Assembly: GCA_011523945.1 (NCBI GenBank)
Contig: WTFU01000081.1
Location: forward strand, 1 to 45,016
Reading direction: 5' to 3'
DNA length: 45,016 bases
Origin: Mariniblastus sp.
Lineage (GTDB): Bacteria > Planctomycetota > Planctomycetia > Pirellulales > Pirellulaceae
The notes beneath the pieces are model-generated. The model had not been told where the DNA came from, did not search any database, and saw nothing but the letters and a program-made list of their open reading frames with translations. This document shows positions 1-18,466 of the stretch, piece after piece (the first letter of the stretch is position 1; every line of letters starts with the position of its first letter). The position numbers were made by a program, and so were the translations under genes.

Positions 1-9
1 TGCCGTTTC

Positions 10-100
10 GCTCCCTTCGCCGGTATGACCCGTATCAGGTTCGAAGGGTTGTTTCGAATCGTAATGTCCGAAACTCTCAGCCAAAATGGGACACCCCCGC
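10..100 (-). promoter_or_regulatory. TPP (thiamine pyrophosphate) riboswitch
   Basis: Read on the minus strand, this stretch has the conserved THI-box parts in order: a G-rich 5' strand (GGGGGUGUCCC), the CUGAGAG signature (plus positions 74-80), the ACCCUUCGAACCUGAU segment, and the closing ACCGGCGAAGGGA (about plus 11-23). That element pairs with the CCUUCG arm. The gene it controls lies beyond the left edge on the minus strand. By family knowledge it is usually a thiamine synthesis or uptake gene such as thiC, but that gene is not visible. No expression-platform hairpin can be judged because the window ends. Confidence 0.93.
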
Positions 101-433
101 GATTTATAACAGTATCGCTTTTAGGAAATTCTCGGTCAACACCCAAAACGTTTTCACCCCAACAGCAAGCGCCCTAAATCGATGGAAACTTGATTAATTA
201 ACGCATGGCAATCAATAAAGGCTCATTCGGTATTCCGTCGACCGCATTGCAAGCGGACACGCTAACGGGGGACTGTGGGCTTGAATGGGCTAAGTTATAT
301 CTTGCTTTCGCTGATGGAGAAAAAGTTTTGGGGTACACATTGGTACAAGGCAAGCAATTGGTGTTTGATAGTTTCACGAGTTATATTTCAAGTTCGTCGC
401 AGGTCGAGAGGTTCCCTTAAGAAAGGTTCATTT
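101..433. other. Intergenic stretch between riboswitch and Asp-box gene
   Basis: This holds the promoter region for the leftward TPP-riboswitch transcript and for the rightward Asp-box gene. A 71-codon open frame at 205-420 has no ribosome binding site and no recognisable protein features, and the signal peptide of the next gene begins only at 434. I see no RNA gene or repeat here. Confidence 0.5.
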
Positions 434-1658: not shown

Positions 1659-3212
1659 CTATTGTGGAATCCGGGGGCGGAGTTCTTTGCCCTCCTGATC
1701 TACCGGGTACAGCGCTCCTTCGGCTTGGAGCTGCTCGATCATTTCACCCATCATCCGCTTAAGTACCTGTGGCTGTTCTCCGGCGACATTTGATTTCTCA
1801 AAAGGATCGTCCTTAAGATTGAACAATTCGTACTGCGTCTTGGCGGGATTCATGCTCGGCAGGTAGTGATAGATGACCTTCCATTGCCCCAGACGGAGGA
1901 CAGTGTAGTAATTACTGCGGTGGCTATGGGGGAAGTGCATCAGAAACCGCTCTTCGCGGTCGGGATTTCGCTTGCCGCTAAGTTGTTTGGCCAGGTCAGT
2001 GCCATCAATCGCATGTCCCTTGGGCACTGCAACACCTGCGAGGTTGAGGATCGTAGGGTACAGGTCCATCACACAGCCGAGCTGTTGCTGGATCGCGCCC
2101 TGAGCGATGGGCAGTTTCTGCTGCCACGGATTGCTGGTGTTCGGTTTGGCCCAGGCGGCGATAAAAGGTGCCCGCATTCCCCCTTCGTAGTGCGTGCCTT
2201 TCTTGGCCCGCAACGGGAACGAGCTGTTGTGCTCGTGAGTCGGGCCCAACGGTGCGTCGCTGCCATTGTCTCCCAAAAAGATGATCAGCGTGTCCTCGGC
2301 AATCCCCTTAGCTTCGAGGTGATCCATGACGTCGTTGAGACACGTGTCCATGCTTTCCACCAGCGTCGCGTAGGCTTGCGCGGACTTACCCTTGCCCGAA
2401 TCGGCGTAGTTAGCCGCGTAACGTGGATTGCTGTGGAAGGGCGCATGCAACGCGTAGAGTGCGAGGTCGAGAAAGAACGGCTTGTCGTCCTTTACCGCGT
2501 TATCGATTTGCTGTTTGGCCTCGATCGTGAGTGCCTCTGTGAGGAATTTCTCGGAACCGTGATACTTTTCAAGATGCGGAACCGCACGTTTCTTGTTGCC
2601 TTTGAGATGTCCGTATCCATCTTCCCCGTAGTAACTGCCAGGTTGCCCCCAGGAACAGCCGGCGATGTTGATGTCAAAGCCGAGATTTTCAGGGAACTCC
2701 GAAGGCTCATCGTTCGGTCCAAAATGCGCTTTGCCGATGAAGATCGTGCGATAGCCTGCGGTCTTGAGTCGGCCTGGCAAGGTTCGCGTAGCATCCTGAA
2801 ATCCAGTCCAGTTCCAATCGGGCGGGCCAAACGGCCCCTTGTTGTTACCTTCCGAACGAATCCACTGGGTAACGCCATGGCGAGTCGCGTTCTGTCCGGT
2901 GAGAATGGAAGTGCGAGTCGGCGAACAGACACTCATGGCGTAGAAGTTGTTGAGCCGTGTCCCTTGGGCCGCTAATCGTTCCATGCCCGGGGTTCGATAG
3001 TAGTCATTGAGCGGATAGCGTTTGGGGTTGCTTTGCTCATCAGTCATAAACGGAACGGAGGTGTCCATCGGCCCCATATCGTCAACGAGAAAGACGATGA
3101 TATTTGGTTTTTCGTTTGCATGGGCAGTCGACAACACGGCCAAAATTACCGACGGAAAAATCAGCGCTAACCACAAACGCATATTAGGTAATCGAAACAT
3201 AGGTGACGGCAT
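1659..3212 (-). CDS. Secreted sulfatase (arylsulfatase family, S1)
   Basis: A predicted sulfate ester hydrolase of 517 residues with an N-terminal signal peptide (hydrophobic core about 12-30, ending AHA near 32). The sulfatase signature CSPTR lies at residues 96-100; Cys96 should be converted to formylglycine by an FGE or anaerobic maturase, neither of which is in this window. Metal-site features are the PNIIVFLVDD strand (Asp44, Asp45) and a GDNG motif in the second half, followed by KGTHYEGG. Length is normal for the family. ATG 3212 was chosen because GAAAGG sits 7 bases upstream; a TTG two codons earlier is possible. Planctomycetes carry many such genes for degrading sulfated algal polysaccharides, but the substrate cannot be told from sequence. 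It converges with the Asp-box gene. Confidence 0.95.
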   Translation of the reverse strand: MPSPMFRLPNMRLWLALIFPSVILAVLSTAHANEKPNIIVFLVDDMGPMDTSVPFMTDEQSNPKRYPLNDYYRTPGMERLAAQGTRLNNFYAMSVCSPTRTSILTGQNATRHGVTQWIRSEGNNKGPFGPPDWNWTGFQDATRTLPGRLKTAGYRTIFIGKAHFGPNDEPSEFPENLGFDINIAGCSWGQPGSYYGEDGYGHLKGNKKRAVPHLEKYHGSEKFLTEALTIEAKQQIDNAVKDDKPFFLDLALYALHAPFHSNPRYAANYADSGKGKSAQAYATLVESMDTCLNDVMDHLEAKGIAEDTLIIFLGDNGSDAPLGPTHEHNSSFPLRAKKGTHYEGGMRAPFIAAWAKPNTSNPWQQKLPIAQGAIQQQLGCVMDLYPTILNLAGVAVPKGHAIDGTDLAKQLSGKRNPDREERFLMHFPHSHRSNYYTVLRLGQWKVIYHYLPSMNPAKTQYELFNLKDDPFEKSNVAGEQPQVLKRMMGEMIEQLQAEGALYPVDQEGKELRPRIPQ

Positions 3213-3379
3213 GGTCAAGCCTTTCAGTGAGCCGTGGATGTTATTACGAGATAAATTTGAAATAAAACGATATGTCTACAATACCGCCCCCGCCTCCAAA
3301 AGGCCACAAAAATCCAAAATCGAATTCCAGTAGGCAAGTTACTGGTTTCAGTTTTTACCCCAACTATTCCGTCGTACGT

Positions 3380-4018
3380 TTAACCATCGCTGCGTAGCGG
3401 AATCACAACGTAATGGCCGTGATGCTCGTACGGTTCTCCCAGTTCGTCTTCCTCTGCATATCGGCTCACGGCCCGGACAGCTGCGGGAATGCTTAAATCA
3501 CTGGAATTTTTGAACCAAACCTTGAAGTAGCGAAACGGGATGATGGCTTCCACCTGAACCTCCGTCATGTTCTCTTCATCATCCTCAGCCATAAATTTCC
3601 AGCGAACCGGAAAGACATTGTTGCTTCGCGTTCCGAACTCAATCTGGTTTCGATTGGTATGCCAGTGATGCGCCTCATAATAAAACTCACCCGGATCACT
3701 CGGCATGATCGGGGAAGAAGCTTCGAATTCTACCGATATACATTGTCCGGCAAGGTCGTGCCAGGATTTGACGGGGATATCAAGACCACTAATGCTGGCG
3801 TGGCACCCCTCTCCAGACACAAACTCGAATTCCTCACGCCGGAAACTTAGATCCTCTGCCGATTCTCCTTCTAGCGGCAGCAGTCGGGCGGGACCACAGC
3901 GGACCCCGATGGACCAGGTTGGCAGGCGTTCAGGTTCATCCTGTGATAGAAATCCATAGATTTCTGAGTGGTCCGCGACCAGTTCAAACTCAAACCCCAT
4001 TCCCAGTATTGTCAGCAT
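3380..4018 (-). CDS. Hypothetical protein, acidic, no recognised domain
   Basis: I do not recognise this 212-residue protein. It has no signal peptide or membrane segment and is rich in Glu and Asp, so it is probably cytosolic. Notable patches are the aromatic, His-rich FYYEAHHWHTNR in the middle and EHHGHYVVIPLR at the C-terminus. ATG 4018 is preferred because CAGGAG lies 6 bases upstream; the longer open frame would start at a TTG ten codons earlier with no such site. It stands alone on the minus strand, with about 170 bases to the sulfatase start, and diverges from the sigma factor gene. Confidence 0.7.
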   Translation of the reverse strand: MLTILGMGFEFELVADHSEIYGFLSQDEPERLPTWSIGVRCGPARLLPLEGESAEDLSFRREEFEFVSGEGCHASISGLDIPVKSWHDLAGQCISVEFEASSPIMPSDPGEFYYEAHHWHTNRNQIEFGTRSNNVFPVRWKFMAEDDEENMTEVQVEAIIPFRYFKVWFKNSSDLSIPAAVRAVSRYAEEDELGEPYEHHGHYVVIPLRSDG

Positions 4019-4350
4019 AGCCTTCTCCTGATGCGTGCATTTACCCAAATTGTAATTCGCTTGAACGGATAACGCCTACCACCGGAACCGTTTTTTGGTT
4101 CGATACGTAAAACCAAGCCAGCTACGTCTTACTCCATCACCCAAGCCCCGCGATGACGAGGTAAAACGGAAGACTCGCCGGCTCAAAATGATTGGCTAGG
4201 TCTTGTACCCCGACGCTAGTGAAGGCGTTCGCACAGACTGACAATGCAATTATTGAATATTTCTCGGTTATGCTAATTTTAGTTCGTCACACGTGGACGG
4301 TTAGAGACAACCATTAATAGCAGTATTTTAAATTCGTTTAGGCTTGAAAA
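4019..4350. other. Divergent intergenic region upstream of the ECF sigma gene
   Basis: About 330 bases between two divergent genes, so both promoters should lie here. I see no RNA gene, tRNA or strong hairpin. The last 80 bases before the sigma gene are AT-rich. No clear ribosome site precedes the TTG start at 4351. Confidence 0.4.
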
Positions 4351-4914
4351 TTGAATCGCGAGAAAGTTAACAAATTGCCACACAAACGGGATCGATCTGA
4401 AGTCTTATTCGAAACTTTGGTGCGCGAAAACGAGCGAACTGTCACCGCGTTTTTACGAACAATGGTTCGTGATCCTGGATTTGTGGATGACCTGTTTCAG
4501 GAAACGCTCATTACGGCCTGGAACAAATTTGATGAATTTGATCCCAGCCGATCCCTAGGGCCTTGGCTGCGAGGAATCGCTTTTAATTTAGTACGAAACG
4601 CGGCTCGTTCACGCAAACGAGACTGCCTGGTTTTTGGGGCAGCGGCTACCGAGGCGATCGAATCACTATTTAACAATTTTGACGGGGATCAGGGAAAGTG
4701 GGAGGAGCAAGTAGATGCGTTGCGGGCTTGTGTGGAGGCGCTGCCGGAAAAATCCAGAAGAATTGTCGAGCTCCGATATGAAAAAAGAGTCAACGCCGCT
4801 GAAATCGCTCAAAAGGTCTCGAGCTCTCCGTCAGCAATCCGCAAAAAGTTGCAGCGTATAAGACAGCTCCTCGCTGAATGCGTGATGGGCAAGATTCAGC
4901 CAAGTCAAATCTAG
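4351..4914 (+). CDS. ECF-type RNA polymerase sigma factor
   Basis: A 187-residue sigma-70 family protein with only regions 2 and 4. Region 2 (about 16-88) contains the core-binding and -10 recognition part, including DDLFQETLITAW and the PWLRGIAFN helix. Region 4 (about 120-177) has ALPEKSRRIVELRY followed by a helix-turn-helix (AAEIAQKVSSSPSAIRKKL). The C-terminus resembles the planctomycete ECF groups. The start is uncertain: TTG 4351 has no clear Shine-Dalgarno, but the next ATG would cut into region 2. Downstream lie a small open frame and a single-pass membrane protein that probably acts as its cognate regulator. Its regulon is unknown; the heme/copper monooxygenase genes just downstream are candidates by position only. 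Confidence 0.92.
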   Translation: MNREKVNKLPHKRDRSEVLFETLVRENERTVTAFLRTMVRDPGFVDDLFQETLITAWNKFDEFDPSRSLGPWLRGIAFNLVRNAARSRKRDCLVFGAAATEAIESLFNNFDGDQGKWEEQVDALRACVEALPEKSRRIVELRYEKRVNAAEIAQKVSSSPSAIRKKLQRIRQLLAECVMGKIQPSQI

Positions 4915-5066
4915 TGTTATTTTTAGGCACGCATAAACATGGATACGTGACCGAATCAGAAGAAACAGAAATGATGATGTCAGCACTAAATTCAAATACA
5001 GATTCAGTCATCCGGTGTTTCCTCCGCAGGACAGCAGCACTATTTTTTTAAAAGTTGGTTACCAAG

Positions 5067-5255
5067 ATGAAAACTAAAACCGATCGCAATACAAACAACG
5101 ACCAACCTCGAATGGACATGAAATATCTTATGTTCGATTTAGAAGCAACCCTACGAGAACGTGACTCGTATAAGAATGCGTTAGAAGACGAAACACCATT
5201 CGCAATTGCGATCGATTGCGGAATGAAGGTTGCGGCCCAAAAAGCAATCAAATGA
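5067..5255 (+). CDS. Possible small hypothetical protein between sigma factor and regulator
   Basis: A 62-codon frame (66 if the upstream TTG at 5055 is used), hydrophilic in its first 40 residues and with a short apolar stretch (TPFAIAIDCGM). No domain is recognised. No good ribosome site precedes either start. It lies on the same strand as the sigma factor and the membrane regulator, 57 bases before the latter, so it could be a genuine small member of that operon. The support is only position and an uninterrupted frame, and chance is a real alternative. Confidence 0.35.
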   Translation: MKTKTDRNTNNDQPRMDMKYLMFDLEATLRERDSYKNALEDETPFAIAIDCGMKVAAQKAIK

Positions 5256-5312
5256 ATACGGGACGAAAAAATGCTGATAGAACCATTTACATTGTTAAAT
5301 TAGAAAATCGTG

Positions 5313-6395
5313 ATGACTGATTACAACCACAAACCGGAACCCAAGATACAGCATGCTGATTCGGTCGAAATTTGGTTGGACGAGCCCAACCTTGATGGCC
5401 AATGTTCAGTGGACAGAAATTCCGTGGACGCAAACGATGATGCAAAGAACTCAAACGATTTTGATGAATTGACCAATACTGAATTCCAACAATTACTGAC
5501 GCACGCGATGCTCGCGGAGTGTTTTGAGTCGCCTGCAGATCGGGAAAAGCGAATAGAAAAAACAATCCGAAGTCTTGACTCAACAGACTTGATTCAAACC
5601 TCAACCGTCTCGGTTTCGACAAAAGCAAATCATTCCCTGAAGGCACCCGGCCCGAAACCCAATATTCCTACGCGTCCAACACCCAAATTGTGGTTTGCGC
5701 CATGGTGGTCCGTCGCGATAGCAACGGCGGCCTCAATTGCGATTATCACGGTAATTGGATTGTCGCTTTCACCCTCCCAAGCCTCTGCAGCCATGAGTCG
5801 AGTAATTGAATCATGCCGAGCTTCCAACACCCGAATCTACGACATAACGATTGATCGCTCGGGACTACTTTTCCGCGAGAGACGACTCGACGGGACCTTA
5901 CATACGCGTGGAACTGATCGTTTTGTTGCCAAATTCCCTGAAACCCCCAAAGGCCCAACCGCTCTCGGATTTGACGGCGAATATCGTTGGTGGTTGCAGG
6001 GGGATGAACAATGGAATTCCGGTAACGGAATCGAGACACCTCGCGATGCAGTTATCAGCCTTTTAACCAGCTTGCAGTTGCAAATTAACTCACTTTTGAT
6101 CGAGTTGCCAGAACAATACGAGATACGGTTGCTCGAAGCGGAGCCGTTGCCGGGTGAACCAACAGTAACTTGCCACCCGATTGAGGCAACAAGGACGGGA
6201 GCCAACCGTCGCTTAGCTTCGACGGTGAGGATTTGGGCTCACCCAGTAACGGGTGTCGTGGTGCAAATGGAGTTGGTACACGAGAAATTCAAACAGGTTG
6301 CAGCTAGTCGTGTCAGATTAACGTTGCGTGAGGAGGTCAATGTTCCGGATTCGATGTTCAAAGCAAATTATCATGAGTCCGAAACAGTGAAATAA
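5313..6395 (+). CDS. Single-pass membrane protein, probable ECF sigma regulator (anti-sigma-like)
   Basis: A 360-residue protein with a cytoplasmic N-terminal part (1-130, rich in Asp, Asn and Pro), one membrane helix at about 131-152 (WWSVAIATAASIAIITVIGL), and a periplasmic C-terminal domain of about 200 residues. The order sigma factor then single-pass protein with a soluble N-terminus is typical of sigma/anti-sigma pairs. However, I do not see a zinc-binding HxxxCxxC anti-sigma motif, so the assignment is by architecture and position. The beta-rich C-terminal part (EYRWWLQGDEQW, VRIWAHPVTGVVVQME) resembles lipoprotein-sorting or outer-membrane-sensor folds seen in planctomycete regulators (tentative). 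A GTG one codon earlier (5310) is an alternative start. Confidence 0.7.
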   Translation: MTDYNHKPEPKIQHADSVEIWLDEPNLDGQCSVDRNSVDANDDAKNSNDFDELTNTEFQQLLTHAMLAECFESPADREKRIEKTIRSLDSTDLIQTSTVSVSTKANHSLKAPGPKPNIPTRPTPKLWFAPWWSVAIATAASIAIITVIGLSLSPSQASAAMSRVIESCRASNTRIYDITIDRSGLLFRERRLDGTLHTRGTDRFVAKFPETPKGPTALGFDGEYRWWLQGDEQWNSGNGIETPRDAVISLLTSLQLQINSLLIELPEQYEIRLLEAEPLPGEPTVTCHPIEATRTGANRRLASTVRIWAHPVTGVVVQMELVHEKFKQVAASRVRLTLREEVNVPDSMFKANYHESETVK

Positions 6396-6642
6396 GAGAT
6401 AACAGTCTCCTACAATCGCTGTCCATGTCAACGAATAATCTTGCGATGAATGTTGCACAGTGGTTTTGTCACACCTGGAACTTCTCTGACAACAACTAGT
6501 AGATAGATCTTCGAATCACAATTTGGAAAATCGAGTTCACGAAAAACCAAACGAGATTTGCATTCTTCAAACGCGGAATGGCCATCGACCGCTCTAACGA
6601 GCCTGAAGGCAGCTAAGGATGCAATTCACCGGAAAGGAAATT

Positions 6643-8277
6643 ATGAGCACCGGCAAGACATTTCTTACAGCAGCGATGATGTTAACTAGCGTCATTTTGG
6701 GGTTGCAGCAAACAAGTGCAGAAACGATCACATTTTCCAGTCACATTGCAAAAATTGTTTATTCAAAATGCAGCTCATGCCATCGACCGGGGCAATCTGG
6801 TCCGTTTAGCTTGTTGACTTACAACGATGTTGCAGATCGGGCCAGCACAATCCAGGCAGTCATTGACGACGGCTATATGCCTCCATGGAAAAATGTGACG
6901 AATGACGTTCGTTTCGAACATGATCGACGACTAACCAAGCAAGAGCTTGAGCTCATCCAACGTTGGGTGGAGGATGGTGCGCCTCTGGGCGACCCAAAGA
7001 AAGCTCCCCGCCAACCAGAATTCCCTTCTGATTGGCTGCTGGGGAAACCAGACATGGAAGTAGAGATGAATGGAAACTTCACAATTCCTGCAAGCGGACC
7101 AGACACCTACCGTTCCTTTGTGTTTCCGATGGATCTACCGGAAGACAAGTGGATCAAAGCAATCGAGATCAAGCCACAGGCTAAATCAGCTTTGCATCAT
7201 GCGTTGTTTTTTCTTGACATTGCCAAGGCAGGCCGGACCGTAGATGGTAAGGATGGGCGAGCCGGCATTTCAGGAATGAGCTTCCTAGGTCGAAATGCGT
7301 TTACCGGAGTTTCTACTGATAATAAAAACTCAACCAAGACATCGATTTCTCTGGGCGGATACGTACCCGGGACGACGCCAATGCTTCTCCCGGGTGACAA
7401 TGCCATGCTGCTTCCTAAGGGTTCCGACCTGATCATGCAAACCCACTTTCACCCCAGCGGAAAGAAAGAAGTTGAGCACGCGCGGATGGCCCTCTACTTT
7501 GCGGATAAACCACCGTCGAGACAACTTACCACACTCATGATTCCACCTGTATTCGGTCGATTCGCAAATATCGATATTCCCGCCGGACAAAAGGACTACA
7601 CCATAACCGACTCCTTTACACTACCGGTTGGAGTGAACGCGATACGGACATCGGGACACGCCCATTATTTAGCCACAGAAATGTCGTTGGTCGCTACTCT
7701 CCCCGATGGCAAAAAGATCAACCTTTTTCAAGTTGATGACTGGGATCTGGATTGGCAGGACACGTATCAATTCGCCAGTCCTGTCACACTACCTGCTGGG
7801 ACGTTACTTGAATCAAAGATCGTCTATGACAATTCCTCTGCAAATCCTTCAAACCCGAACAGTCCACCTCAACGCGTAACGTGGGGACGCGAATCGAACG
7901 ACGAAATGGGAAACGTAACAATTCAAATGATTGCACAAAACGCTAGTGAACAGGCAACCCTGAATAGAGCTTTACAGGGAAAAACACGTGAATCGATGAT
8001 GGCCTCTATCCAGCTTGGACGATCCCAACCCAAACGTGAATCCCAACCTCCAGCCCAAGTACTGGTAAAAAAAATGGATAGCAACCAAGACGGTCGGATT
8101 CAACTTGTTGAATTTAAAAAGCAATTCCCGCGTGCCGAAAGGCTATTCAATCGTTTCGACATTAATAACGACGATGAGCTTGATAAATCGGAATTGGATG
8201 CGGCTCGCCAACCAATAACCCAAGTCCTAAATCTTCGAAAACGAACTCAGGGCTTTGGAGGAAAGGAGAGAGAATGA
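6643..8277 (+). CDS. Heme c / PHM-type copper monooxygenase / EF-hand fusion protein
   Basis: An exported 544-residue protein with three modules. After a signal peptide (1-26) there is a cytochrome c-like domain with the heme-binding CSSCH at 43-47 and a possible axial Met79. Next comes a copper type II, ascorbate-dependent monooxygenase unit (PHM/DBM fold). All copper ligands known from peptidylglycine hydroxylating monooxygenase have counterparts: His185-His186 and His268 for the first copper; His339, His341 (GHAH) and Met422 (DEMGN) for the second. The C-terminus has two EF-hand loops (D479-N481-D483-E490 and D506-N508-D510-E517). The substrate is unknown; the family hydroxylates C-H bonds using O2 and electrons, which the heme could supply (inference). 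ATG 6643 follows GGAAAGGA and starts the signal peptide; an in-frame ATG at 6619 is possible. It overlaps the redoxin gene by 4 bases. Confidence 0.88.
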   Translation: MSTGKTFLTAAMMLTSVILGLQQTSAETITFSSHIAKIVYSKCSSCHRPGQSGPFSLLTYNDVADRASTIQAVIDDGYMPPWKNVTNDVRFEHDRRLTKQELELIQRWVEDGAPLGDPKKAPRQPEFPSDWLLGKPDMEVEMNGNFTIPASGPDTYRSFVFPMDLPEDKWIKAIEIKPQAKSALHHALFFLDIAKAGRTVDGKDGRAGISGMSFLGRNAFTGVSTDNKNSTKTSISLGGYVPGTTPMLLPGDNAMLLPKGSDLIMQTHFHPSGKKEVEHARMALYFADKPPSRQLTTLMIPPVFGRFANIDIPAGQKDYTITDSFTLPVGVNAIRTSGHAHYLATEMSLVATLPDGKKINLFQVDDWDLDWQDTYQFASPVTLPAGTLLESKIVYDNSSANPSNPNSPPQRVTWGRESNDEMGNVTIQMIAQNASEQATLNRALQGKTRESMMASIQLGRSQPKRESQPPAQVLVKKMDSNQDGRIQLVEFKKQFPRAERLFNRFDINNDDELDKSELDAARQPITQVLNLRKRTQGFGGKERE

Positions 8278-8927
8278 TCCGCTCAATCGCGATGAGCTTA
8301 CAGCCTCAGTTGTTACTTATTACCTTACTTTGGATAACCGCAATGGTTGGCTGCCGCCCCGCCGACGAAGTTCCTGTCGCTGTGGATACCTTAAAACAGG
8401 AAAGACTTGATCGTGGAAGTACACACGACGATGTATCCGATATTGAGGGGAATCAGCATCGGTTGTTCGATCACAATTCTAATCGATTTCGAGTCATCAC
8501 GTTCGTAACGACTGACTGCCCAATCGCGAATGTCTATCAGCCAATACTAAGAGAACTCGCCGAAGATTTTTCTGAGGCGAAGATTGACTTTTTCCAGGTA
8601 AACCCAACCCGGTCCGCCACGATCGAAGAGGCCAAACTGCACTCCTCTGATTTTGAAATCACCTCTCCGATGATTCTTGATTCGAATCAGGCAATTGCTG
8701 ATCGCCTTGGCGCAAAAGTAACCCCAGAGACGTTTTTGATTTCACCGTCTGGAGAAGTTGTTTATCGGGGACGGATCGACGACCTGTACGTTGGCTTTGG
8801 AAAAAAACGTCAAAAGCCAACCAGTCATGACCTCCGTGACGCTATCAATTCTGCGCTCGCTTTGCAACCAATCTCGACACCGACTACAACACCGGTTGGC
8901 TGCATCATTCAGTACGGCCATAAATAG
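8274..8927 (+). CDS. Redoxin/thioredoxin-fold lipoprotein
   Basis: A 217-residue protein with a lipoprotein-type signal peptide ending in MVGC (Cys27), so probably membrane-attached outside the cytoplasm. The thioredoxin-like fold is indicated by VITFVTTDCPIAN, with a single active-site Cys82 rather than CxxC, and the cis-proline loop KVTPETFLI (Pro151). A second conserved-looking Cys210 sits in PVGCIIQ close to the C-terminus and could resolve or relay with Cys82. Its ATGA start overlaps the stop of the copper monooxygenase gene, and its GGAAAGGAGAG ribosome site lies inside that gene, so the two are translationally coupled. A role in delivering reducing equivalents or copper to the monooxygenase is inference. 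SCO-like or peroxiredoxin-like activity are alternatives. Confidence 0.82.
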   Translation: MIRSIAMSLQPQLLLITLLWITAMVGCRPADEVPVAVDTLKQERLDRGSTHDDVSDIEGNQHRLFDHNSNRFRVITFVTTDCPIANVYQPILRELAEDFSEAKIDFFQVNPTRSATIEEAKLHSSDFEITSPMILDSNQAIADRLGAKVTPETFLISPSGEVVYRGRIDDLYVGFGKKRQKPTSHDLRDAINSALALQPISTPTTTPVGCIIQYGHK

Positions 8928-9399: not shown

Positions 9400-12300
9400 A
9401 TGAGAGCAACAACCTTAACTTCTATTTCGGTACAATTTACCTTAATCATTGCGCTTGGTTTAGAGTTGCTTGCTCCCGTCTGCCAAGCTGAGGACTTGCC
9501 AGATACTTTGACCGCATTCTTCGAAAACCACTGTGTAGATTGTCACGGCAATGCAGGGGAGGGTGGATTAAATCTACTGTCACTGGAATGGAAACTTGAG
9601 GATCCGCATAACAGCAGTATCTGGGTCAAGATTCACGACCGGATCGAGTCCAACGAAATGCCGCCAAAGGAAGACAGCCATTTAAACGAAGTCGATCGAA
9701 GTGCGGCATTGAAGGATCTGGCGAGTCGAATCGCCCAATATCAAAAGCAGAAATACAATCAAAACGGACGCGCGGTTTCTCGGCGAGTGAATCGTTTCGA
9801 ATACGAGAATATCCTTCGCGATCTCCTACACGACCCTCAGCTCAAAATCGCGGATCAGTTACCATTGGACGGTGAAGTCCATGGCTTCGCCAAAGTGGGC
9901 GAAGCCCTTGATGTTTCCCATGTGCAGGTCGATGCCTACCTCGATGTAGCCGAGTTTGCCCTTCGTCGCGCGCTTGAGTTTCCCGCGAAACAACCCAAGC
10001 CGACGACTCACCGCTACTATGCCCGCGAGGAGAACCGGATGTGGGCGGGTAATGGAAATGGCGGCTGGGCGAGATTTTCCCTCGCGCTGGAGGGGCTTAA
10101 TATCAATGAGAAATACTCCTTCGATCAAAAAGGCTTTGATCCATCCAAGAAGGCTCGGAGCATCCAGTTCCCGGGCACCACCGTAGACGATACCGAGGCG
10201 GAACGCACCGGAAACTGGCGCAAGTCCACCCGTCGTTCCAACCATATAGGGTCGCACTATCTGGCTACCGACAAAGGCAATGGACGCTACGAAATTACTT
10301 GGAAGGCCTCGTTACCTAAACCTGGGACTTACGAAGTACGGGTCAGTTTTGGTGGGGGAGAGGGATTGGCCAGAAAGGTACCTTATCGAGTTCGCCACAC
10401 CGGGGGCGAAACCCTCCTGACCATCGATCAAAGTCAGAAGCCGAACATCCAAGATCTCTGGTTTTCCCTCGGCCGTTTCAACTTCGGTTCAAGCGACACT
10501 GATTCGAAGACCAAACCGGTAGTGGCCGAGGTGTCGCTAAGTAATAAGGACGTCAAGGGCTGGGTAATCGCGGATGCAGTTCAGTTCGTACACGTCGACG
10601 ATCTTAATAAAAAGGGCGAGAAGACTGAGCCTCAGGAAGAGGCATCCACCGCTATTTTTCGCGGAGCTTATACTCCGTTTTACTACGGTTTTGACAAATT
10701 TAAAGCTCCGGTCCGCGGAAACTACAAGATTCGCCTGAAGGCACGATCCGTGCTTCGCCAGACAGATTACGTCGATTGGGAGGGGGAAAAAAAGCCACGC
10801 CACTATCCGAACCTGGTACTCGATGCAACGCGGCGTTATCCAACTCCGGTGAATGATCGCATTTTTCCTGGAGACCGCAGTGAACCAGTCAAAGTCTATT
10901 CTTCCACCCTGTCTGAACCCAATACCCAAAGCATGCTTCCGATCGGGATATTCGAAGCCCCCCCCGAAGCCCCGGGGATTTTTGAACTTGCGGCCTTTCT
11001 GGAGAAAGGAGCGATGGTAAAACTCGATTGCATGCGACTGCCCAGCCCGATGGTGCCGGCAATGCCGCATACCATCCGGAAGACTGATGGCGGATACCCC
11101 GGAGTCGCCTTCCATTGGCTCGAGGTCGAAGGACCCATTGTTCAGGATTGGCCGCCCGCGTCCTACCGAGCGCTGTTTGGTGATGTTCCTTTTAAGCAGG
11201 CAGGTCGTCATGTCGAGGCGATTTCGGAGCAACCAATGAAGGACGCGGGTAAGCTGTTGGCAGCTTTCATGGATCGGGTGTACCGGCGCCCGGTTGCGGA
11301 AGCCGAATTCAATCGCTTCCTTGGATATGCGAAGCAGCTGCTAAAGGAAGGAAAATCCTTTACGAAGACGATGATTGCGACCTATTCGGCGGTGCTGGCT
11401 TCGCCCGAGTTCCTCTTCCACTGCAGTCAACCTGGTGAGCTGGATTCATTTGCGCTGGCCGAGCGTCTTGCTTTTTTCCTAGGGGAATCCATGCCGGACA
11501 AACAACTCCGCAAGCTGGCGCGGCAGGGAAGACTTCGGGATCCTGCTACGTTGCGAACCGAAGTTGATCGCCTTTTAGAAAAGCCAGAAGCCGAACGATT
11601 CGTAAAGGAATTCCTGAATGCGTGGCTCAAACTCGACGAGATCAACGACACCGATCCCGATAGAGAACTCTATCCTGAATACGCCGGAGACTGGTGGTTA
11701 GTGAACTCAATGATCAAAGAGTCACGTCTCTTCTTTGCGGATCTCATTGCCGGCGATCTACCGGCGCGAAATGTAATCGACGCCGATCATACTTTTGCCG
11801 ATGAACGCCTTGCCCGGCACTACAATATTCACGGAGTGTCAGGTCCAGCGTTTCAGCGCGTCACGCTTTCAGAAAAGAGTCCTTACGGTGGAATTCTGAC
11901 TCAGGCAGCCGTAATGAAGGTCACGGCGAACGGAACCGTTACCTCTCCGGTCTTGCGCGGAGTTTATGTAATGGAAAAAATCCTGGGCGATCCGCCCTCT
12001 CCGCCGCCTCCGTCCGTCCCTGCAGTGGAACCTGATATCCGCGGTGCGTCGACCATCCGTGAGTTGCTGAAGAAGCATCGGAAAAATTCATCCTGCGCGA
12101 GCTGCCACCAGAAGATCGATCCTCCGGGCTTCGCGCTGGAGAATTTTGACGTCATGGGGCGCTGGCGGGAAAGCTACCGCTCGCTTGGTGGCGGATCGGA
12201 ACGAGTTGAGGGCCTGGGGCGAAGTGGGAACGAGTTTGTACACTACATCGGAAACGAAGTCGACGCCTCCGGGGTAACGTCTAGGGGCGAATCTTTTGTC

Positions 12301-12516
12301 GACATCCTCGAATTCAAAAAGCTCTTGTTGCAGGATGAGGAGACCATTGCACGTAATCTGACCGAACAGCTCCTAGTGTATGCTACGGGTGCTCCGGTTG
12401 ATTTCGCGGATCGCGAGGCCGTTTCTGCGATTCTCGCAAAGAGTCGAGAATCAGAATTCGGCGTTCGCACCCTCATTCATGAAATTGTTCAAAGTCCTTT
12501 GTTCCTGCGGAAATAA
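9400..12516 (+). CDS. Planctomycete cytochrome-type protein (DUF1587/1595/1592/1588/1585) with golvesin-like insert
   Basis: An exported 1038-residue protein: signal peptide (1-30), heme c motif CVDCH (45-49), DUF1587 start NRFEYENILRDLL (about 130), DUF1595 near FMDRVYRRPV (about 620), DUF1592 from SPEFLFH (about 667-800), DUF1588 from YGGILTQAAVMK (about 828) with a second heme-type motif CASCH (899-903) followed by KIDPPGFALENFD, and DUF1585 to the end (about 955-1036). Between DUF1587 and DUF1595 (about 255-400) sits a region with VDDTEAERTGNW, PGTYEVRVSF, LWFSLGRFNF and VIADAVQFV, which resembles the golvesin/xanthan-lyase carbohydrate-binding domain. It is followed 4 bases later by the DUF1552 gene, the usual partner. 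Function of the pair is not established; periplasmic electron transfer in glycan oxidation is often suggested. GAAAGGAGACGAGG precedes the ATG. Confidence 0.92.
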   Translation: MRATTLTSISVQFTLIIALGLELLAPVCQAEDLPDTLTAFFENHCVDCHGNAGEGGLNLLSLEWKLEDPHNSSIWVKIHDRIESNEMPPKEDSHLNEVDRSAALKDLASRIAQYQKQKYNQNGRAVSRRVNRFEYENILRDLLHDPQLKIADQLPLDGEVHGFAKVGEALDVSHVQVDAYLDVAEFALRRALEFPAKQPKPTTHRYYAREENRMWAGNGNGGWARFSLALEGLNINEKYSFDQKGFDPSKKARSIQFPGTTVDDTEAERTGNWRKSTRRSNHIGSHYLATDKGNGRYEITWKASLPKPGTYEVRVSFGGGEGLARKVPYRVRHTGGETLLTIDQSQKPNIQDLWFSLGRFNFGSSDTDSKTKPVVAEVSLSNKDVKGWVIADAVQFVHVDDLNKKGEKTEPQEEASTAIFRGAYTPFYYGFDKFKAPVRGNYKIRLKARSVLRQTDYVDWEGEKKPRHYPNLVLDATRRYPTPVNDRIFPGDRSEPVKVYSSTLSEPNTQSMLPIGIFEAPPEAPGIFELAAFLEKGAMVKLDCMRLPSPMVPAMPHTIRKTDGGYPGVAFHWLEVEGPIVQDWPPASYRALFGDVPFKQAGRHVEAISEQPMKDAGKLLAAFMDRVYRRPVAEAEFNRFLGYAKQLLKEGKSFTKTMIATYSAVLASPEFLFHCSQPGELDSFALAERLAFFLGESMPDKQLRKLARQGRLRDPATLRTEVDRLLEKPEAERFVKEFLNAWLKLDEINDTDPDRELYPEYAGDWWLVNSMIKESRLFFADLIAGDLPARNVIDADHTFADERLARHYNIHGVSGPAFQRVTLSEKSPYGGILTQAAVMKVTANGTVTSPVLRGVYVMEKILGDPPSPPPPSVPAVEPDIRGASTIRELLKKHRKNSSCASCHQKIDPPGFALENFDVMGRWRESYRSLGGGSERVEGLGRSGNEFVHYIGNEVDASGVTSRGESFVDILEFKKLLLQDEETIARNLTEQLLVYATGAPVDFADREAVSAILAKSRESEFGVRTLIHEIVQSPLFLRK

Positions 12517-12520
12517 GCCC

Positions 12521-13774
12521 ATGGAAACCTCCCGTAGAAAATTCCTTCAGGCTACCGGAGTCAGCCTGAGTCTGCCTGTGCTCGAATCCTTCGGAGCCGC
12601 CTCCGGGAGGACTTCTCCCAAGCGTATGATCGCCATCAACCAGGATCTCGGTTTTATTCCTAAAAACTTTTTTCCGAAGACATCTGGAAAAGAATATCGC
12701 TTATCGCCTTACCTTGAGAAGATCGCCGCGCACCGAGAGCAATTCACCGTATTCAGCGGACTTTCTCATCCCGGCGTCGATGGAGGGCACCGAGCCGACA
12801 AAACATTTCTGACCGCGGCGCCACATCCGGGGCGGGCGAGTTTTCGCAACAGCATTTCTCTGGATCAGGTGATGGCCAATGAAGTGGGACACGAGACCCG
12901 CTTTCGATCGCTTTCCCTGGCTATCAACGATGTGCGGAGTCTGTCCTACACTCAAGCCGGGGTTGAAATCCCTACGATTCGAAGCGCCGCGGAGATGTAC
13001 AAGAAGATGTTTCTTCAGGGCGATCGTAAGGCAATGGAAGCGCAACTCGTACGGCTGCGCGAGAAGGGTAGCATTCTCGACGTCGTATTGGGGCAAAGCT
13101 CGAATCTGAGTAAACGCGTGAGTGCTTCTGACCGCAGGCGGATCGACCAGTTTCAAACCGCAGTCCGAAGCCTCGAACAGCGACTGGCCGAAGCAAAAGC
13201 CTGGGAAACCCGCCCCAAGCCCAAGGTCAGCGATGCTATGCCGGAATACCCAAGTGACAAAAAGGAGTTCTTTGGAATGATCCGCATGATGAATGATATG
13301 TCACGGCTCGCCTTTCAAACGGATTCCACCCGGATAATCACTCTGTTTCTAGGCAGTGTACGCACGCCGGGCGTGAATTTTGACGACGGCCGGTCGCTCG
13401 GCGGTTACCATAATCTCTCCCATCACGGCAAAGACGAGACGAAGTTAAAACAACTGGAAGAGATCGAAATCGCACAGATGGAATTATTTGGGGAACTGCT
13501 TCGGGAGCTCCAGCAAGTTGAGGAAGCTGACGGCAGCCTGTTGGATAACACGATGGTGCTCTATGGCTGCCACATGGGAGATGCCAACATCCACAACAAC
13601 CTCAACCTCCCCATCATCCTCGCAGGCGGTGGGTTCCGCCACGGACAACACCTGGCTTTTAACCCGCATAACAACACACCCCTGTGCAATGTCTTTGTCA
13701 GTATGCTGCAAAGGATGCAAATCGAATTAGATCATTTTTCTAGCAGTACAGGAACACTGACAGGATTGACATAA
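12521..13774 (+). CDS. DUF1552 protein with TAT signal
   Basis: A 417-residue protein that starts with a twin-arginine signal (SRRKFLQATG at 4-13), so it is predicted to be exported folded. Family features include MIAINQDLGFIPKNFFP after the signal, FSGLSHPGVDGGH, RFRSLSLAIND in the first half and LLDNTMVLYGCHMGD near the end, as in DUF1552 proteins. Together with the DUF1501 family these are sulfatase/phosphatase-fold relatives, but no catalytic role is established. The gene begins 4 bases after the DUF1592 stop. This two-gene order is common in planctomycetes and implies that the two products act together. ATG 12521 was chosen because it gives the TAT signal; the open frame continues 47 codons upstream inside the previous gene. 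Confidence 0.93.
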   Translation: METSRRKFLQATGVSLSLPVLESFGAASGRTSPKRMIAINQDLGFIPKNFFPKTSGKEYRLSPYLEKIAAHREQFTVFSGLSHPGVDGGHRADKTFLTAAPHPGRASFRNSISLDQVMANEVGHETRFRSLSLAINDVRSLSYTQAGVEIPTIRSAAEMYKKMFLQGDRKAMEAQLVRLREKGSILDVVLGQSSNLSKRVSASDRRRIDQFQTAVRSLEQRLAEAKAWETRPKPKVSDAMPEYPSDKKEFFGMIRMMNDMSRLAFQTDSTRIITLFLGSVRTPGVNFDDGRSLGGYHNLSHHGKDETKLKQLEEIEIAQMELFGELLRELQQVEEADGSLLDNTMVLYGCHMGDANIHNNLNLPIILAGGGFRHGQHLAFNPHNNTPLCNVFVSMLQRMQIELDHFSSSTGTLTGLT

Positions 13775-14034
13775 AACTGAATCGTTCAGCTCCATTCCCC
13801 AATGCTCCAACGTTGCTTGCAACGATCTAAGCTGCCGGGTACGAAATGGCTGAGAAATTGCAATTTTACATTTTAATTGTCAATTCTTGTCCACTTTTCT
13901 CCGTGGTTACGTGAACTAGTAATTGGGGAGATTTGTTTTTCAGGGACGCAAAAATCTCCTACCGTTCCCCATTTTGGACCGATAATTTTAATCACTCGCT
14001 TTCAGCACAACCTATGCTGCGAAAAAACAAAATC

Positions 14035-15261
14035 ATGAAGAAAACCACTGGACTAACATTTTTGTGCCTGCTTGTTTCACTGACTTTTGTAGCACGCACA
14101 AACGCGGATGATTCGATCAAGCAACAGATTCTTAAGCTCTTTCCGCAGGCCGACACTGATAAAGATGGTGTCATATCTGATGCGGAAGAGTCGACAGTTC
14201 GCCAACAAATTCTCAAGCGGTTTTCACGAGCCGACAAAGACGGAGACAGCGTTCTTTCCGATTCTGAAATGAAAGCGATATTTCGACAGGCGGCTAAGCG
14301 AGGGAATCGGAACACACCGAGTACGGGTAACTCGCGAATAAACAATGCAAAAAAGAATCCAGGCGCAGAGGCAATCTTAAATTCGCTGGGCGTGAAAAGC
14401 GAACTCGACATCGAGTACAAAAAGAACACTTCCCAACAAAGAAATAAGCTGGATTTCATTTACCCAAAAAAGAAAGTTTATGAAAAAGCACCGCTCTTTA
14501 TCTACATCCACGGAGGCGGTAACACCGGTGGTACAAAAAACGCCATCTACACGAAAGGCGATTTGGTTCTGAAAGAACTTACCGATGCAGGGATCGCCGT
14601 CGCGACTATTGATTACCGGCTATTTGGCCAGGGCGAAGAGCTTGGTTTCCACCAGCTGTTTCAGGACTGCAAGGATGCAATTCGATTTCTGGCAAAAAAC
14701 TCAGAACGCTTTGGTATCGACCCGCACAAAATAGTCACTTGGGGGACGTCCGCAGGTGGATCGAAAGCGTTAATCTGCGCCCTCACGGCGAACGATCTCC
14801 TTCCCGGGGAAGTTACTGGTCCGGGCACCGAACACACGGTGATCGGCGCGATCTCGTTCTTTGGCGCCACCACTTACCTCGTGCCCGAACTTTGGAATAA
14901 GCGGCTCGAGCGATTTCCGGCGAGGAGCCAATCCAAAGGTGAAATGATGTTCAAACCATTTGATGGCTTGAGCTCTGAGGAGATCAAAAATCTGGTCAGC
15001 GCTGATCAACATTTAAAAGCGGATAGCCCACCCATTCTGTTGGTTCATGGCGATACGGACCCCACCGTACCGATTGAACTTTCCAAACACCTCTATCAAA
15101 AGGCGAAGACGTCAGGCGGTGACGTGAAACTTGTCGAAGTCACCAACGCCGGACATGGATTCAAACCAGTCAAAGGCAGCAATGCTGCACCATCTATGAC
15201 CTGGAACGAAACCCAGACGTTGGTGATCGAACAGGTGATGGAATGGGTGAAACAGAAATAA
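14035..15261 (+). CDS. Secreted EF-hand / alpha-beta hydrolase (esterase-like)
   Basis: A 408-residue exported protein: signal peptide (1-24), two EF-hand loops (Asp40-Asp42-Asp44-Glu51 and Asp67-Asp69-Asp71-Glu78), then an alpha/beta hydrolase of the HSL/BD-FAE kind. The oxyanion motif HGGG is at 159-162, the nucleophile Ser239 in GTSAGG, the acid Asp342 in GDTDPTVP, and the catalytic His374 in AGHGF. The triad is complete, so esterase or deacetylase activity, perhaps on polysaccharide side groups, is likely (inference for substrate). The EF-hands suggest calcium binding. ATG 14035 gives the signal peptide at the N-terminus; ATG 14014 and an upstream frame to 13933 are less likely. No strong ribosome site is visible. 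A broken relative follows downstream. Confidence 0.9.
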   Translation: MKKTTGLTFLCLLVSLTFVARTNADDSIKQQILKLFPQADTDKDGVISDAEESTVRQQILKRFSRADKDGDSVLSDSEMKAIFRQAAKRGNRNTPSTGNSRINNAKKNPGAEAILNSLGVKSELDIEYKKNTSQQRNKLDFIYPKKKVYEKAPLFIYIHGGGNTGGTKNAIYTKGDLVLKELTDAGIAVATIDYRLFGQGEELGFHQLFQDCKDAIRFLAKNSERFGIDPHKIVTWGTSAGGSKALICALTANDLLPGEVTGPGTEHTVIGAISFFGATTYLVPELWNKRLERFPARSQSKGEMMFKPFDGLSSEEIKNLVSADQHLKADSPPILLVHGDTDPTVPIELSKHLYQKAKTSGGDVKLVEVTNAGHGFKPVKGSNAAPSMTWNETQTLVIEQVMEWVKQK

Positions 15262-18079: not shown

Positions 18080-18104
18080 AGCCGGGTTGTGACTCCGACG
18101 TGAG

Positions 18105-18466
18105 TGGAGGCGGCGGGGATCGAACCCGCGTCCCGCGATGAATCCGCTATATCCTCTACGTGTGTAGTCGTCGATTTAATTTTCGTTCGAACCACCGGGC
18201 AACGACACCCTGAAATTCAAACTAGTCTGAAACTTCATTTAACAATCCGCGTGTCAAACATGACTGATTGCGATCTGGAATTGGTGACCAGCAGTCTAGG
18301 CTCTCCAGCGAAACCTATCAGCCGGGGCAGCCTATTTCTAGGCAGCCATTGCGAAAGAGTTATCTTCTGCAAATAAAAGTTTTGGTCAGATTTTTACGTA
18401 GCCCTCTGACCAGCTACGACACGCCAACACAACTTCAAGCAATCCGGTCGATTCCAATTCGCCCCC
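18105..18466 (-). ncRNA. ssrA: tmRNA (transfer-messenger RNA)
   Basis: The minus strand starts GGGGGCGAATTGGAATCGAC (plus 18466 downward), matching the tmRNA 5' tRNA-like half. It ends in GGACGCGGGTTCGATCCCCG, then CCGCCTCCA (T arm and acceptor strand). GGGGGCG at the 5' end pairs with CGCCTCC at the 3' end. The last encoded base is the discriminator A at 18105; CCA is not encoded (CTC follows), so it must be added by tRNA nucleotidyltransferase. The internal reading frame gives the proteolysis tag AEDNSFAMAA followed by TAG at plus 18331-18333, with a second in-frame TAG two codons on. The product rescues stalled ribosomes together with SmpB. Length is 362 nucleotides, normal for one-piece tmRNA. 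Confidence 0.96.

Follow-up and report, generated by a model that had tools for sequence, protein, structure and literature searches.

PHM and DBM are standard examples of enzymes that run on ascorbate, and a bacterial gene that joins their set of copper ligands to a heme-c motif raises the question of what such a protein does and where its electrons come from. The gene lies in a window of 45,016 nucleotides, the whole stretch of Mariniblastus sp. DNA that was analysed (contig WTFU01000081.1). Our answer, which we regard as probable on balance, is that it specifies a monooxygenase of the PHM superfamily that is exported, carries its own heme relay and has a thiol partner dedicated to it, a redoxin encoded immediately downstream.

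The open reading frame spans 6619-8277 of the forward strand (552 codons plus stop). Position 6643, corresponding to Met9, is the likelier start because the ribosome-binding stretch GGAAAGGAA, directly 5' of it, is the better one there (Table 1). Residues are numbered here from 6619, eight higher than in the earlier note on this DNA, whose His185, His186, His268, His339, His341 and Met422 were all recovered as H193, H194, H276, H347, H349 and M430. From the N to the C terminus, the protein carries a signal peptide, CSSCH, MPPW, a PHM-like region and two EF-hand loops, and its only cysteines are C51 and C54. As had been claimed, a heme-c motif, PHM-type ligands and EF-hands are thus united on one chain with an export signal.

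Table 1 Coordinates of the heme-PHM gene, its motifs and its neighbours in the window
Feature	Position	Strand	Basis or remark
ECF sigma factor, Rhodopirellula/Verrucomicrobium family (TIGR02989)	4351..4914	+	154 bits, cut-off 124.55; candidate regulator
Protein containing a hydrophobic segment; gene lies after the sigma gene and before the PHM gene	5310..6395	+	Candidate anti-sigma; putative role
Heme c / PHM-type dicopper / EF-hand protein	6643..8277	+	ORF from 6619, likelier start 6643
Sec-type signal peptide	6643..6720	+	Read by eye; cleavage probable past T-S-A, residues 32-34
CSSCH heme-c attachment motif (C51, C54, H55)	6769..6783	+	Kept in 87/87 covered relatives
MPPW, residues 87-90	6877..6888	+	M87 candidate axial heme ligand, Met 88/88; putative role
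H193-H194, CuH ligands (PHM H107, H108)	7195..7200	+	His 90/90; profile alignment with PHM
Q274-T-H276 (H276 = PHM H172, CuH; Q274 = PHM Q170)	7438..7446	+	H276 90/90, Q274 75/90
H347-A-H349, CuM ligands (PHM H242, H244)	7657..7665	+	His 90/90; profile alignment
DWQDTY (Q380 = PHM Q272, plus Y383)	7750..7767	+	Each 90/90; profile alignment
M430, CuM ligand (PHM M314)	7906..7908	+	Met 89/89 covered; profile alignment
EF-hand loop 1, residues 487-498, DSNQDGRIQLVE	8077..8112	+	Pfam and sequence
EF-hand loop 2, residues 514-525, DINNDDELDKSE	8158..8193	+	Pfam and sequence
Redoxin (AhpC/TSA, TlpA/ResA-like)	8274..8927	+	4-nt overlap with PHM gene stop; probable lipoprotein (lipobox MVGC, read by eye)
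DCPIAN with redoxin C82	8514..8531	+	Cys in 70/70 readable rows
Redoxin C210, VGC tail	8901..8903	+	Cys in 67/67 covered rows

It is the family profile and the fold that assign the copper region to PHM, Pfam being weak for the single protein. There, Cu2_monoox_C (PF03712) scores 15.1 bits, under its curated cut-off of 23, the N-terminal copper domain Cu2_monooxygen (PF01082) has no Pfam match, and no PHM emerged when the single sequence was searched against the PDB at E up to 1. Among relatives at E 0.01, PF03712 matches 24/66 and PF01082 9/66, and a PF03712 profile search of the source genome was uninformative, coming back blank everywhere and likewise for 14 controls. A profile built from 66 relatives, by contrast, ranks PHM structures first in the PDB (rat PHM, E 7.5e-8). 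Aligned with rat PHM, it brings six copper ligands into register, together with PHM Q272 and Q170; the PHM residue numbers that we give to aligned ligands (H242 and H244, for example) are assumed from the chain index. The underlying alignment, A1, holds 66 of 74 ORFs, eight having been left out: three contained X owing to N bases, and five were fragments or second copies. An AlphaFold2 model computed on the 66-relative alignment (pLDDT 89.4, pTM 0.80) agrees with the profile at the level of fold: in a Foldseek search of the PDB, the best 31 of the 50 matches listed are all PHM or DBH entries (3mll: E 1.4e-12, TM 0.62 by target and 0.39 by query), and the remainder of the 50 are weaker matches to PNGase F and other proteins. 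Profile and model together point to a member of the PHM/DBM copper type II monooxygenase superfamily.

The ligands themselves are constant. Across 90 relatives (97 ORFs minus 7 duplicates, 5 short ORFs having been dropped earlier), H193, H194, H276, H347, H349, Q380 and Y383 are each invariant (90/90), M430 is Met in all 89 that cover the position, and Q274 is Gln in 75/90. With ligands invariant wherever they are covered in 90 relatives, the set is not a product of chance. According to an excerpt of PMC6123673, Q170, Q272 and H108 of PHM belong, together with the peptide substrate, to a network of water molecules. The earlier note had staked its reading on homologues sharing the ligands that it named, and every one of them is kept wherever a homologue covers it. 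A looser alignment of 74 ORFs that includes fragments has one row with R at M87, ligands being otherwise unchanged or gapped.

Residues R240 and Y318 of PHM, which we take to be its contacts for the substrate carboxylate, behave differently: their positions hold S345 and T434 in the window protein, and among the 90 relatives only 4 have R at the first and 8 have Y at the second. The oxygen chemistry therefore seems to be preserved, but the PHM substrate site apparently is not, which makes peptide amidation unlikely. We accordingly see very little prospect of a classical ascorbate-type peptidylglycine hydroxylase that makes amidated peptides in bacteria; such an enzyme would share the fold and copper ligands found here, but the carboxylate-binding Arg and Tyr are not conserved, and a Pfam scan of 16 window ORFs, out of 45 of at least 120 codons, detected no PAL-like (NHL) domain. 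That the PHM substrate residues are not kept also speaks for a role of the fold other than as an oxygenase, in copper sensing, copper storage or electron transfer. This we think improbable, since six ligands plus Q380 and Y383 are constant in all covering relatives, which is stricter than a store needs, and DBM-type enzymes also differ from PHM at the substrate site.

The heme motif is held as firmly as the copper site. CxxCH is kept in 87/87 covered relatives and M87 is Met in 88/88, and since neither varies more than the copper ligands do, heme very likely belongs to the unit. An exported protein (export judged by eye) that has CxxCH and a conserved Met fits the pattern of a c-type cytochrome, and the CSSCH domain is predicted to bind heme. 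Pfam recognizes Cytochrome_CBB3 in the window protein at 22.7 bits, under the cut-off of 27, and in 45/66 relatives at E 0.01. Modelled in isolation (pLDDT 84.3, pTM 0.78), the heme domain has no Foldseek match in the PDB under E 0.001, perhaps because AlphaFold places no heme; the best, at E 1.0, is 5c2v (hydrazine synthase alpha), a chain that likewise leads the non-PHM matches of the profile search (E 0.028).

Comparing genomic context, as the earlier note had advised, revealed a redoxin next to or fused with most relatives. The window's own copy matches AhpC-TSA at 44.5 bits (cut-off 26). A redoxin profile finds 2ywi, 2cvb and 3u5r closest in the PDB (E 3e-30 to 9e-27), all three having equivalents of C82 and C210 in the alignments, followed by thioredoxin-family chains and then ResA at E 6.8e-12. 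At the thioredoxin CxxC position the window redoxin reads CPIA, and the second Cys occurs in 3/71 sequences; redoxin alignment A3 contains 48 of 57 redoxin ORFs. Arrangements were tallied on 95 genes, reduced from 130 ORFs in 128 loci by dropping any that shared 200 identical consecutive residues (near-copies were retained) and then, by setting aside five cut by contig or locus ends, to 90 uncut ones. A same-family redoxin accompanies 71 of these 90, a fraction that is not unbiased because the loci were fetched by similarity to the window gene; with near-copies merged into 84 groups, it accompanies 61 of 80 uncut. It lies downstream in 39 cases and upstream in 10, while 20 are N-terminal and 2 C-terminal fusions; one of the C-terminal fusions, L062, comes from Rhodopirellula baltica, a marine planctomycete of free-living habit that has other copies too. 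Downstream redoxins sit within 450 nt in 36/39, the other three at 791, 1252 and 1782. As no redoxin appears for 19/90 uncut genes within the DNA covered, at least 1.2 kb on each side, the partner is not universal.

The source genome (92% complete) repeats the pairing on a small scale. All three complete PHM copies have a redoxin, P0002 and P0003 as N-terminal fusions, and only four redoxins of this kind were found in the genome, three of them paired with a PHM copy. In 20/20 N-terminal fusions, the GC tail cysteine of the redoxin stands 26-35 residues ahead of the heme motif. On a tree made by a quick method from 92 of the 95 rows, in which 29/89 inner branches are under 80, arrangement class changes 19 times with the cut class included (shuffled mean 48) and at least 14 times without it. 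Redoxin arrangements are thus inherited, yet the partner has shifted around the PHM gene repeatedly. Two further leads on the redoxin were set aside: a Cys/His copper site, weakened by H123 being His in only 54/68 covered sequences, and a joint alignment of fused and separate redoxins (A2), which seemed misaligned (8-17% identity to the fusion) and was not used. Separately, locus L069 of a Bryobacteraceae MAG carries four tandem cytochrome-PHM frames at 3114-8063, the last partial, with no redoxin in the locus; its genome gives 16 profile matches, pieces counted.

EF-hand_7 (33.7 bits, cut-off 30) is the only Pfam domain above its curated cut-off in the window protein. By a loose EF loop pattern, 40/95 genes have one loop or more beyond the copper core; the pattern misses some loops, detecting one of the window protein's two. 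EF-hand_1 occurs in 27/66 A1 rows, a lower bound because many rows are trimmed at the C terminus. On the tree, EF-hands concentrate in the clade of the window gene, with few elsewhere, among them the own-genome copy P0003. The pair is a calcium module that some members of the family have as an accessory, and it does not define the family. The description of this protein as a three-module enzyme therefore holds for the chain itself, where heme motif, copper core and EF-hands are all there, and needs amending for the family, in only part of which EF-hands occur; it also overlooked the redoxin. TPR repeats were found by Pfam in 8/10 hand-picked relatives, mostly long and without EF-hands (seven strong, L095 weak). 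In the heme-PHM proteins of L086, L077, L081, L085, L089, L018 and L028, the C-terminal part is a TPR array.

Counting as strong those matches with E at most 1e-40, mostly across the heme and copper regions, we found them in 57/149 sampled genomes of the window's phylum and in 3/96 genomes of the phylum of G151, centre genome included. In the phylum of G149, 24/119 genomes match under a limit of E 0.001, G194 reaching no better than 8e-4, and eight of the 24 have 13 or 14 matches each, pieces counted. We take the phyla of these genome sets to be Planctomycetota, Verrucomicrobiota and Acidobacteriota. The architecture is common, not unusual, among the sampled planctomycete genomes. A search of a plasmid collection with query residues 32-447 gave no match.

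Upstream, a same-strand relative of the sigma factor precedes the PHM gene in 10 of the 30 relatives that have at least 2.7 kb of upstream DNA, which makes a linked regulator likely in part of the family. These sigma genes end 871-1114 nt before the PHM frame; in the window the distance is ~1.7 kb. The intervening 5310-6395 protein has no Pfam match at E 1. Downstream of the redoxin lie a PSCyt1/PSD (DUF1592-type) protein into which a Golvesin_C domain is inserted (9400-12516) and an HXXSHH (DUF1552) gene (12380-13774), whose frames overlap. Neither was retained as part of the system: a PSD relative is downstream in 1/30 relatives tested, and no HXXSHH relative appears in 69 loci with flanks of ~6 kb or less, often shorter. 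Elsewhere in the window are an esterase (BD-FAE, 13933-15261) with an EF-hand-like stretch ahead of its catalytic domain (26.4 bits, cut-off 30), a tmRNA gene at 18102-18466 (-) and a TPP riboswitch match at 1-108 (-), its 3' end cut by the window edge.

What might the redoxin do for its partner? ResA/CcmG and TlpA act as maturation factors for heme attachment or copper sites, and the redoxin may likewise reduce CxxCH before heme is attached, or prepare the copper site, while ordinary periplasmic cytochromes feed the heme. We hold this to be possible, though less than even in probability. It would fit the ResA match of the redoxin profile and the 19/90 uncut genes with no redoxin in view, and PMC6107167 cites a work whose title concerns the reduction of a copper chaperone by TlpA. 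It sits less well with nearest PDB relatives that are 2ywi, 2cvb and 3u5r rather than ResA, and with the general lack of CxxC. Moreover, three of the four own-genome redoxins go with PHM copies despite the presence of other c-type heme proteins (PSCyt1 at 9400-12516), and a factor used once has no need of fusion to its client. As a role for the redoxin, maturation and thiol donation are nonetheless close in likelihood.

The reading that we prefer, a monooxygenase with its own heme relay and thiol partner, builds on the ligands, the heme motif, the modelled PHM fold and the strong redoxin pairing. CuH (H193, H194, H276) and CuM (H347, H349, M430) would activate O2, at CuM as in PHM, and hydroxylate the substrate. 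Covalent heme c on the same chain would pass electrons to CuH in place of ascorbate, and the redoxin, through C82 and C210, would either feed the heme/copper chain from thiols or keep the metal sites reduced and loaded. Excerpts of PMC8981238 report that a small c-type cytochrome reduces and activates copper LPMOs, which makes a heme-to-copper supply chemically reasonable. The respiratory chain, suggested in the earlier note, is one possible electron source, and thiols through the redoxin are another. Taken to its full extent, the proposal is an ascorbate-free chain running from redoxin (C82/C210) through heme c to CuH/CuM, acting as one unit in Planctomycetota, Acidobacteriota and Verrucomicrobiota on a substrate other than peptidylglycine; in that complete form we advance it tentatively and consider it doubtful.

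In the literature, a table of a 2020 review (PMC7435645) places PHM and DBM under eukaryotes only, and a passage of PMC6529398 discusses PHM-like sequences of protists, not bacteria. The main text of a cuproprotein survey (PMC2147054) contains no word starting with peptidylglycine or dopamine. Judged by title and start of abstract, none of the open-licence papers listed describes a heme-PHM-redoxin architecture. This variant of the PHM superfamily is real, well conserved and, as far as the literature searched goes, little described; what is new is an invariant heme motif with a moving redoxin partner, rather than a single gene. A large bacterial family with dicopper core, heme motif and redoxin would show a different electron supply and would bear on the origin of the animal amidating and hydroxylating enzymes, and it makes heme-to-dicopper transfer directly testable within one polypeptide.

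Set beside known systems, the window protein shares with rat PHM (1opm, 1sdw) the double jelly-roll fold and the order of the six copper ligands, as well as Q272 and, in most relatives, Q170. It differs in having a heme-c motif on the chain and a redoxin partner, and the PHM disulfides are absent and the Arg/Tyr clamp is not kept. Human dopamine beta-hydroxylase (4zel) shares the superfamily fold (Foldseek E 3.6e-12) and is an ascorbate-driven eukaryotic enzyme that is not known to have heme c or a redoxin. The redoxin belongs by profile with TlpA/ResA-type redoxins and with 2ywi, 2cvb and 3u5r, the last three sharing C82/C210, but it is tied to PHM genes and predicted to be exported, and its relatives mostly lack CxxC. 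The closest analogue in working is Cellvibrio CjX183 with its LPMO: although, in the excerpts of PMC8981238, the copper enzyme is unrelated and the cytochrome belongs, as a domain, to a separate protein (Cbp2D), there too a small heme c reduces a secreted copper monooxygenase.
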